A stretch of DNA of 64,000 bases from NCBI GenBank assembly GCA_903813345.2, contig CAIIXF020000007.1:34068538-34132537 (forward strand), read 5' to 3'. Under the pieces are notes generated by a model. The model did no database searches and had not been told where the DNA came from. It worked only from the letters and a program-made list of their open reading frames with translations. Position numbers and translations under genes: made by a program. Of this stretch, positions 25,201 through 43,200 are shown piece by piece. Source of the stretch: Owenia fusiformis. Taxonomy: Eukaryota; Annelida; Polychaeta; Sabellida; Oweniidae. The first letter of the stretch is position 1. Each line of letters begins with the position of its first letter.

Positions 25201-28200
25201 TATTGCTAAGCTGACACCTCTAATATAATTTTGATTTACAACTAAATTTTAATCACCTTCATTTTACTGACTCAGAAAACCTGACATCCTGAGATTATGA
25301 GTGGCAATTTGAGTGATTACCCGCATTCGATAGACTCAGGACAATTAATAACAGGATTAAAACTTTTAATATCGGGATTAAAAACTTTTAATACTGGGAT
25401 TTCCAAAGCACTTGGATACAATTAGATCTTCTGACATTTTAACTTTTTAACATGACTTTTTATTGTAATTTTATGCTGGGGAATAAAGCTTTGATTTTAT
25501 CGTATTTTATTTATGATTTTTGTTAAAGTATAGTAAGCTGATACTCGTTAGAAAATTACCCTATTACAGTAAGTTGACACACATTAGACAACTACCATAT
25601 TATCGCCCACAAAGATCGATCTTCAGTTACTTAATTATATTTCCGAATTTTATGTTGCCGTTTCTGTTTTACATTCGGCAATCGGCAATTTTATATTCAC
25701 GGCAATATTTCATGTTATACAGTACATGTATGTCGGTATATAATATTTACAATCTCAGCAAAATCCTTGATTTGCACTTAATAGAAAGGCACGAATCAGA
25801 AAGAATACAATATAGTGACCTCAATGTGCTTTGAATTTCAGTTGTACCCAAGTAAAAAGACATGGCAATTCTCATGTAATAATTGGTTAACTTTGGTCTA
25901 ATAATTATGCATTTTGATAAAAATTAACCTATTTGTTAAATGAGCATTAAATCAATGAAAGTTGAATGCCAATAAATAGCTATTTATTACACCTATTTAT
26001 TATTCTAACAACTATGTTATAATGCTCTTTGAATAATTGGGTAACTTTTTGTCATCCTTGCTACCCTAGGTGATAAAAATTAGCTTATTGTTAAGATTGG
26101 ACTTATAAGAAATGTGGCAGTGAGTATTAGCAAAATATTAACTTTCCCGCTCTTTTTAAACCAAAAGAAAAATGGCTGACAAAGAATGTTCAACTGTAAG
26201 AGATTTGGGTAATTTTATGATTTTATAACAATAGTATGAAAATGACCAATCAAATATAGATTCAGAAGTTACTGACATACTTGAACATTCTGCATGTCTA
26301 CTTTGTGAGAGGTAAAATGTAAGTATTGCTGTTTTATTCCAGTTTAGATGGGCAAATCTTCTTTTCTTTGTGAATTTATGAAGGCTAAATTTTAATTCTT
26401 CATACAGTCAAACTAGTCAAGTATAAATGTGTTGTGTATGACCAATTGTACCATGCAGTAAAAATTATAAGGTATTTTATAAAGATCATGAAGATAAATA
26501 CTGCTGGAGGCCTAGCCTAGAGGGTCCTTCAATAACTGTGAGCCTTCTGGCCTTCAGGACAATTCTGAATGGGTAAAATTATCAGTGATGTCCCATAATA
26601 ATTGCTTATATCATCTTACATACCCAGGGCCAACCTAAAATGAAAAATTTGCGTGTGATTTCCAAAAATTGTGGTACTTTTACAGGAGATTTTTCCAAAA
26701 TCTGGTAGTTTTAAAAAAATTGGTAGTTTTCGCCGTAGATTTTTAAAAATCAGGAGTTTTTTAGGTGAATTTTGAAACAACTGGAGTTTTTACGGTAGAT
26801 TTGAAATAAAACGGTACTTTTTTAAAAAAGCGGATTATCTCCAGTTTTTTTCTAATAAAAGCAATAGTTTTTGCGGTAAATTCTGCAAAAAGTGGTACTT
26901 TTGTGGGAGATTTTTGACAAAATCTGTATAGTTTTTGCAAGAAATTTTGAAAAACTTTGGACTTTGCCATTAATTAATTTATACGCTTTGTATGGCCAGA
27001 TTTGAATATTCACGCAAATTACATATACGCCACACATTTACTTCGAATTTGTGTGTCCCTACCCACCTAATTTTACATATTATTTAATGTTTTTGGTTCT
27101 TATAGTAGAAAATAAATTTTGTAGACCATAATGCATCTTGGGTAAGAGTAATGCAACAAATAGGTTTTAAATAGCTAATAAATAGGTAATACTCTGTTAA
27201 TTCTTAGCTAACAAATACCTAAAAAATTTATCATGCAAATTAGAGAATATTACCACAATAAATATGTACAATATTTAGGTAATATTCTGTTAACATATAG
27301 CTTATTATTGGAAGATAATCAATACATGATTATTAGATTTCTAATTTTACCTAATTATTACAATGTAATTTTCATTTAATAATCAGTCAATATTCTACAT
27401 GAGCGTTGAATGTTAACAATACCTTATTATTAACACCTATTTATTAACGTAATTCTCTCTAATTTGCATGATAAATTTTTCAGGTATTTGTTAGCTAAGA
27501 ATTAATAGAGTATTACCTATTTATTGTCAATATTTTCCCATTGACTTTTTTCACTTGGGTAGCACTCCTTGAAGAGATCTCTTGATTATAGCAAAGCTCA
27601 CATTAGGCAGCCATTTTGGATTTTATGAAGCACAATTCAGAGAAACATTTTGTATATACAAAGGATACTCAATGAAATGTTACCATTTTAACGAGAAACA
27701 AGCAAGACGACAACAGTATAACACTTTGAAAAAGTGTCATAAAAATATAATAAAAGTTATTTCCTGACCTGCATCTGCATTGTGTAGTGGTAAGATATTG
27801 TTATAATAAAAGTTATTTCCTGACCTGCGTCTGCATTGTGTAGTGGTCAGATATTGTTATAATAAGCATTTATTTCCTGACCTGCGTCTGCATTGTGTAG
27901 TGGTAAGATATTGTTATAATAAACAGTTATTTCCTGACCTGCGTCTGCATTGTGTTGTGGTAAGATATTGTTATAATAAACAGTTATTTCCTGACCTGCG
28001 TCTGCATTGTGTAGTGGTCAGATATTGTTATAATAAGCATTTATTTCCTGACCTGCGTCTGCATTGTGTAGTGGTAAGATATTGTTATAATAAGCATTTA
28101 TTTCCTGACCTGCGTCTGCATTGTGTAGTGGTAAGATATTGTTATAATAAGCATTTATTTCCTGACCTGCGTCTGCATTGTGTTGTGGTCAGATATTGTT

Positions 28201-40200: not shown

Positions 40201-43200
40201 GTTATAATAAGCATTTATTTCCTGACCTGCGTCTGCATTGTGTAGTGGTCAGATATTGTTATAATAAGCAGTTATTTCCTGACCTGCGTCTGCATTGTGT
40301 AGTGGTAAGATATTGTTATAATAAGCAGTTATTTCCTGACCTGCGTCTGCATTGTGTTGTGGTCAGATATTGTTATAATAAACAGTTATTTCCTGACCTG
40401 CGTCTGCATTGTGTTGTGGTAAGATATTGTTATAATAAGCATTTATTTCCTGACCTGCGTCTGCATTGTGTAGTGGTCAGATATTGTTATAATAAACAGT
40501 TATTTCCTGACCTGCGTCTGCATTGTGTAGTGGTAAGATATTGTTATAATAAACAGTTATTTCCTGACCTGCGTCTGCATTGTGTTGTGGTCAGATATTG
40601 TTATAATAAACAGTTATTTCCTGACCTGCGTCTGCATTGTGTAGTGGTAAGATATTGTTCCATCTTTGATATCATGTTGGTCTTGTGGGGTAGAAATGCC
40701 TCACTCACATCTTTAAGGAAGTACCTTAAGAAATCAAATTGTTATTTTTTGCCCTAATTATAGACTTTAAGAAAGTGTAGACAATTGTGATAGGCTGATT
40801 GCATTCTACCATGGGCTTTCAACAGAAAGCTTCTCTTGAGAGCCCATGTTTCTACACAGTACACTTTCATTAATTTCTCATCTTTAGAAGGTGTTTCTAC
40901 AGGTATTTTAAATATGACCAGAATATACCATCAGTACTGGAAAAAAAAATCCATGGTGAAAAAAGTATGTATAAGTGACTTTGTATGGTTTACTTTCAAT
41001 CATTGATTTGTCTTCACAAAATAAAGGCTCAGAAATCAAAAATTATTCAGAAAAATGCTGATTCTCTTTCACAGTGATTTTATCGATTCCTTGTCTTTTC
41101 TCTTTTTCTTTGAAATACATGATACCTTTATAGACTCACTTGTTAGTTTTAAAATCTCCTGGAGCATATATTGTCTGGCATTCACTGGGCAAACCATCTC
41201 TCCCTGCCCGCCCAATCTCTTGGTAGTAAGACTCTATATCTTTTGGAGCTACAACATTGGCAATATGTCTGTATGTCATTTGCTTTCATATAGTCAAATA
41301 CATATAGAGTGAAATCTGTGTATATTAAACATTTTTTTGTTCAGAAAAAATGTTCAGTGTTAGTAAGTGTTCACTGCAGAGAAGGTAATTTATACAGAAG
41401 TCAGTAGAGTATGTGCGGAGGGAGGGTGTCTACTTGAGAAAGGTGTTCACTAAGACAGGTTTTACTGTAAACAGGTATTTAAAAACTACAATGCTTTAAT
41501 AGAGACAACATTGATGTGCTAAAAGTAAAAAGTTCTTATAAAATGATATAATTTGATTCAAATCAATTAGAAAGAACTTAAAAATGTAATGATGACCAAA
41601 GTACAATTTTTACAAATGTAAGGTTGTTTTGGGAATGTATCAATATATTGCTTGAGAAAAAATCGTAAGTATTTAACGATAGTGGCTGAAAGATCACTTT
41701 CATTAGATTTCCATTAAATCGATTTTAGAAATATAATCATCATTTTAATAGAACATTACTACAATGAATATGAAATATTCAAAGGAAAAATATGAGAAAA
41801 AATCCAGAAAATAACTTGAAATGTAGAACAGAAAGAATCCATTGACGATGACAAACGTGATTCTTCGACCTACATTGATTGATATTTCACCCTTTTGATT
41901 TTGAAATAAACCTCATATGATGTTCATTCATACATGAAATGCATGATACAAAACCAGCTACATTGTACCTCCAAGAATAAAACATTCCTACCAATTGAAT
42001 ATACTTAACTTTGTGAATTCTGAAAGAACGATTCATCTAATGTTTATAAACTGACATAATTTATAAAGAAAATCAATTTATCATATCTTATATTTATGAG
42101 GTGATGCTTAGGGAATCAAACCAAAATGTTATTACTTTCACTTTTACTATAATTGTTATATTGATACATTCCCTTATCAATGTTTACCTCCATAATGTAT
42201 TATCTTTCTAACATCTGGTTTGTCTATGCCCATTCCAAAAGCAACAGTGGCCACCATGACTTGAACTTTATCATTGATAAAAGCATGATGTGCTGCCTTA
42301 CGTGCAGACATACTAAGCCCTGCATGGTACTGGATGGACTTTACACCAATAGCTGAAATGTTATACAAATGTAAACTTTATCATTGATAAAAGCATGATG
42401 TGCTGCCTTACGTGCAGACATACTAAGCCCTGCATGGTACTGTATGGACTTTGATTTGGTTTCACATACATAGGCCATTGTACTTTACATTGAATTCCAA
42501 AGTTACATACCACCAAGGGCAACTTGTACAGTCTCAGTCATCTTCTTGGTCTGGCAATACACAATAGTGGAGCCAGCAAACTCAAATTTATTGTGATTCC
42601 GGGTCATTTGTGATCTCAGGTCAGTATGGATATCTCCTGTCTTTAAGTTGACTCCCAGAAATAGATTTGGCCTGAAAAACACACAATAACATAAGGCAAG
42701 TAAAAAAATTCAAGTTTTCAAATGCTTAACCTTCCTGCCAGGCCATTTTTAGGACATTTAACTTAACTAATCTCTAAAGATAGCAAAAACTATTACCTGA
42801 ATCTTTAATGATATCGAAAACCCTGTTATGTCATTTCTGCTCTTGAGATCCTATATTTTCCAAAAGCCAAGACAGCATCAAAATTTAATGTTTGAGCCAA
42901 GTATTTTTTGAAATTAGCATGGATAATACATGTATTTAATTTCAAAATAAATCTGTTTAAACAAAGAGGGGAATGGGATTCCAATCCTTAGATTAATTTG
43001 ACCCTTTGACTTAACTTACCTGTCAAAACCAGTACAAGTTACAATAGGGCGTAGTAGCTTTAGTGATTTACATATATCCTTCTGGACTTCTGGGGTTGCT
43101 GTAGCAGTCAATGCTACAACCGGCACCTGTTAAAATGATATTTCATTTTAATATAAATAGAAAATTCCATGTGACAGCAAAAACTTCAAAATATATGATA

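Follow-up and report, generated by a model that had tools for sequence, protein, structure and literature searches.

How is one splice donor to be chosen among some 220 identical ones? A stretch of 64,000 nt from the annelid Owenia fusiformis (hereafter the window) contains a WRN-like helicase gene in which a single intron carries ~220 identical 5' splice sites, and a built-in stop would flag every error in their use. Choice among identical donors is usually studied with few engineered copies. The array is a natural setting in which to test splice-site choice by cells: transcripts would gauge directly how much position and exon definition outweigh sequence. Here the functional coding end of an exon itself belongs to a satellite array. 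We consider it probable that the array is a tolerated expansion in place, in which exon definition would select the first copy and nonsense-mediated decay would remove the errors.

The helicase gene and its junction array

Our hand-built model of the helicase gene (19121..46699, minus strand) consisted of 21 coding exons with 1,027 stop-free codons; its bounds, 46699 down to 19121, are those of the modelled exons and may differ from the true first and last exons. All 20 introns between modelled exons had GT-AG ends, and the joins on the minus strand were open throughout. The predicted protein contained the Pfam domains DEAD, Helicase_C, RecQ_Zn_bind, RQC, and HRDC. Human WRN (6yhr, E 1.6e-172) was the top match among the best 60 of 138 PDB matches, with bacterial RecQ, BLM, RECQ1, RECQ5, and RECQ4 far behind in the same set. 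Both the domain content and the best match are those expected of a WRN orthologue, which the gene probably encodes. Vertebrate WRN has an N-terminal 3'-5' exonuclease domain, and no exonuclease domain was found among Pfam matches at E ≤ 0.001 to the 1,027 modelled residues.

The array lies in intron 13 (24979..40625; 15,647 nt), between exon 13 (40626..40724; 99 nt) and exon 14 (24895..24978; 84 nt), all on the minus strand. Exon 14 contains the remaining zinc ligands (CCDNC), and the protein read across the joined exons aligned to the human segment KYLHSSRCRR-QIILSHFE without a gap at the join. Exon 13 contributes its final 33 nt to the repeated unit (one base followed by CAA TAT CTT ACC ACT ACA CAA TGC AGA CGC AG) and intron 13 the 24 nt that come next, starting GTCAGG, as an earlier note on this DNA had described. 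That note had also named a real WRN exon/intron junction as founder of the repeat, and homology across the 13/14 join supports this origin. Copy 1 on the gene strand (40658-40602) combines the true end of exon 13, whose final 33 nt form its exonic portion, with the exon's own donor. All other copies are intronic, so the array is borne as part of the intron.

The head-to-tail arrangement of about 226 copies of 57 bp that had been proposed was confirmed. TRF placed the array at 27746-40659 with a unit of 57 bp and 96% matches, and a unit walk along the minus strand counted 226 starts from window position 40658 to 27801. We delimit the array as 27746..40658 (minus strand). The earlier span of 27746-40724 was right in its start but not in its end, since 40724 is where exon 13 begins. 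Spacing was 57 nt in 221 of the 225 intervals, 56 nt in three, and 92 nt in one; the 92-nt unit includes a second, partial copy, which explains why a 24-mer scan returned 227 copies instead of 226. The array takes up 12,880/15,647 nt (82.3%) of intron 13, matching the earlier estimate of 82%. Across the window, the gene strand contained the exact junction CAG/GTCAGG 222 times, each time within the array. On the plus strand, an antisense frame across 27746-40658 stays open for 2,648 codons and encodes a 19-residue repeat, as is expected of a 57-nt unit with no stop in one frame. The window contains a further sizeable minisatellite at 61109-62411, with a 61-bp unit in ~21 copies.

The unit was confined to this locus. 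The 498-Mb assembly held 216 occurrences of an exact 28-mer from it, the same number as the array, and a 24-mer allowed ≤3 mismatches was found 227 times in each; reversed-pattern controls gave 0 in both searches, and chance plays no part in such counts. No copies were detected outside the array at ≤3 mismatches per 24 nt anywhere in the 498-Mb assembly, where N runs could conceal some. A 36-mer from exon 13 likewise had a single occurrence in the genome at up to 3 mismatches. At this sensitivity the unit is therefore not a dispersed satellite family with copies at many loci, and the earlier view that it is no widespread satellite held across the assembly. That such a satellite landed at exon 13 by chance is scarcely credible given the equality of genomic and in-array counts, both exact and at ≤3 mismatches, and given that the 33 exonic nt of the unit encode a conserved WRN segment in frame.

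Copy variation and growth in place

Common variants were limited to four sites in the unit, two exonic and two intronic, which occurred in many combinations. Both exonic variants were synonymous, as are 21 of the 90 possible exonic changes; two sites are too few to argue for selection, and we dropped that interpretation. Outside the four sites, the 221 units contained 10 rare variant cells, and 5 of these fell within the nine donor positions, so the inner donors of these 221 units showed no extra conservation. Copy 1 was identical to the commonest unit type. A 1-nt deletion was common to the last two copies and recurred in one inner copy. On the gene strand, a block of 29 units was repeated 52 units away (units 77-105 and 129-157), while the longest such run in 200 shuffles was 7 units. 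The recurrence reflects either block duplication of ~3 kb or recent exchange, or an effect of the assembly.

From these patterns we infer that the junction of exon 13 and intron 13 was tandemly duplicated in place and would have grown to ~226 copies through slippage or unequal exchange, with block duplication of dozens of units apparently supplying part of the growth. This mode of expansion, like the lack of function that we ascribe to the product, is presumptive.

A less consequential array can also be envisaged: exon 13 might be skipped or the gene non-functional, or the array length might be partly an assembly effect, since the 29-unit recurrence could also arise from assembly error. Omission of exon 13 would preserve the frame but would cost the protein the exon's cysteine. 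Against a non-functional gene or a skipped exon stand the 21 modelled exons, with their open joins, GT-AG introns, and conserved domains, and the four common variable sites would make the array easier to resolve with long reads. We find this set of explanations quite unlikely.

Repeats at other splice junctions

The earlier note overlooked that the acceptors of intron 13 and of exon 8 also lie within small exon-derived repeats. A 21-nt repeat of ~6 copies crosses the exon-14 acceptor (24961..25084, minus strand), its unit resembling the first 18 nt of exon 14 plus CAG. At distances of 21 and 42 nt upstream of the expected acceptor are two extra ones, in frame and open, whose use would add 7 or 14 residues; they scored 12.0 and 11.4, respectively, compared to 13.8 for the expected acceptor. 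Another, 62 nt upstream, also scored 13.8, yet is out of frame and runs into a stop. At the exon-8 acceptor, a 15/27/42-nt repeat (43353..43455, minus strand) adds three acceptors further upstream, at 27, 42, and 69 nt, all in frame and open just before the DEAH motif, with scores of 7.0, 6.6, and 8.7 against 7.0 for the expected site. In exon 11, 79 nt of the interior are duplicated with one mismatch (42452-42374 and 42342-42264); this duplicate sits 110 nt upstream in intron 10 and includes no splice junction.

Both ends of intron 13 therefore lie in exon-derived repeats, the donor array at one and the exon-14 acceptor repeat at the other. A rheostat could be imagined on this basis, in which ~220 donors and several in-frame acceptors, coupled to nonsense-mediated decay, would make copy number a setting of helicase output that varies between individuals and perhaps between cells, the real exon end being homogenised together with its decoys. 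We give this proposal little credence.

Junctions were not enriched in repeats. Only 3/41 junctions of the gene had a local repeat score ≥24, compared to 8.7% of 1,409 random window positions, which excluded the array and 40 nt around junctions. By compartment, repeats were present at 21/500 positions in exon interiors, 43/500 in WRN introns (array excluded), and 40/500 elsewhere. Among the first 32 sampled loci, a junction repeat covered 1/64 hit ends versus 9.9% of 384 random positions there, and a wider scan of all 62 loci found 4/124 hit ends with scores ≥18; since many hit ends do not coincide with a junction, the sampled-locus counts are floors. We rejected enrichment at splice junctions, the frequency being no higher than random and perhaps lower, and with junctions in repeats no more often than random positions, nothing suggests selection for them. 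The scarcity at sampled hit ends could reflect counter-selection of junction repeats near exons.

The only junction repeat counted in the 62 sampled loci was a presumed two-copy donor repeat at locus L026 (G000:C1:25891745-25891984), where the end of a DEAD-box exon and its presumed GTAAGT donor appear again 64 nt downstream. Together with the two acceptor-side repeats of the helicase gene, it suggests that such duplication happens repeatedly, in line with expansion in place. Three other candidates (L021, L009, and L051) were dropped for weak matches in which no shared donor or acceptor was seen. The repeat lengths in the helicase gene (57, 21, and 15/27/42) are all divisible by three, to which we attached no weight given the 64 nt at L026. 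Separately, matches to RecQ_Zn_bind, DEAD, and Pkinase at three sampled loci (L002, L006, and L052; G000:C12, ~29.035-29.040 Mb) belonged to a 3,104-aa open frame with internal protein repeats in the part examined.

Donor choice and related systems

Beyond the first donor, the frame continues with R S G N N C L L before it meets TAA. The eight codons named in the earlier note were thus recovered, and the in-frame stop was present in 221/221 full-length units. The accompanying claim that exon 13 joins exon 14 in phase from the first copy only did not survive: the unit length is a multiple of three (57 = 3 x 19), so later donors remain in phase, up to the first 56-nt unit, and it is the TAA rather than phase that spoils their products.

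What distinguishes copy 1 is its position beside the exon body and acceptor. Donor 13 is of middling strength: among the 21 donors it ranked 9th by U1 pairing energy and 6th by a matrix derived from the other 20. Predicted accessibility did not favour copy 1, whose rank among the 222 donors was 203, 148, or 144, depending on which of three settings was used. Protection of donors by RNA structure was accordingly discarded as an explanation, the profile over 222 donors having failed to single out copy 1; in one fold (z -1.46), donors pair with the CTGACC of the next copy.

Use of copy 1 is what homology at the exon 13/14 join points to, and general splicing knowledge offers a means. Exon definition would couple the exon-13 acceptor to its nearest donor and so choose copy 1, and products of later donors, ending in TAA after eight codons, would be degraded by nonsense-mediated decay. 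Under exon definition, an ordinary exon length would result from the first few donors only. The phrase "hundreds of equivalent donors" thus describes the sequence well (222 exact copies), but exon definition would leave only the first few as competitors. Exons of 156, 213, and 270 nt, still within the ordinary range, would result from the donors of copies 2, 3, and 4, so leakage to these is possible and exon definition alone may not exclude it.

The identity of the donors (222 exact), the stop shared by all 221 full-length units, and the absence of any predicted accessibility advantage for copy 1 would also suit the tunable brake of the earlier note, in which inner donors are often used, their TAA products decay, and array length sets the amount of functional helicase. 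We regard such a brake as unlikely: inner donors were no more conserved than the rest of the unit, junction repeats were not enriched, and lancelet repeats of this kind, the "mirages" discussed below, reportedly leave splicing undisturbed (PMC3087553, PMC3902484).

A recursive ladder, in which copy 1 joins AG/GT in later copies and each silent step remakes the donor, has some attraction in that CAG directly precedes GT in every unit, so that a step would recreate the junction. The CTTAC or CTGAC of the unit also looks like a branch point, a motif that both resemble. A recursive splice site needs a good acceptor directly before the donor, and here the AG in that place scored -4.1, whereas the gene's 20 real acceptors all scored higher (left-one-out; lowest 0.19). 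For the unit's other AGs the scores were -1.0 and 0.6, and the tract preceding the AG next to the donor is not rich in T. The unit thus does not appear to offer such a site, and the ladder is very improbable.

Tolerated expansion in place, with copy 1 as the probable donor, is thus our preferred account, and it has relatives. The earlier note called a satellite founded by a functional splice junction unusual; the idea is not new, and tandem repeats of exon-intron boundaries have already been published as lancelet "mirages", described as not interfering with splicing (PMC3087553, PMC3902484). The genes named as carrying them are Adh3, troponin C, and the globins BflGb6 and BflGb9 (PMC3087553, PMC3902484), and similar repeats are described in PGBD5 (PMC3902484). 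Three features that characterise mirages were evident in the helicase array: the tandem repeat spans what is in all likelihood an authentic exon-intron boundary, a splice signal is present in the copies (222 exact; 226 starts/227 copies), and the copies show concerted evolution within the cluster. By sequence, then, the array appears to be a mirage minisatellite that has reached the dimensions of a satellite. It is much larger than the described cases for which numbers are given, with ~226 copies over 12.9 kb compared to 6 and 3 for BflGb6 (PMC3087553), and the helicase intron has, in addition, a second repeat at its acceptor. Tolerance at the 6 and 3 copies reported for BflGb6 may not extend to 226. 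The literature searched, at the level of titles, yielded no prior report of this helicase array, and a paper on earthworm metallothionein (PMC12783039), from what it describes, had no bearing on it. Tandem repeats of exon-intron boundaries are therefore a known, if rare and little-noticed, kind, and the array is a real, striking, and unusually large case, its function unproven and its persistence most likely a matter of tolerance.

Two further systems resemble it in part. Variable internal tandem repeats are described where exons meet introns in human genes of segmental duplications, averaging four copies of 30-bp units in recent primate paralogues (PMC2812944). These share with the helicase array a minisatellite placed at an exon-intron boundary, and the human ones can change splicing (PMC2812944). 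In contrast, the array belongs to a conserved helicase gene, includes the end of an exon that was found once in the genome, and is far larger. The other is the gain of introns when AG/GT proto-splice sites are tandemly duplicated (Rogers 1989, cited in PMC3087553), and there too a segment with a splice signal is duplicated and the surplus copies turn into intron. Unlike an intron gained under that model, as it is summarised there, intron 13 shows no sign of being new; just its two ends have been multiplied.
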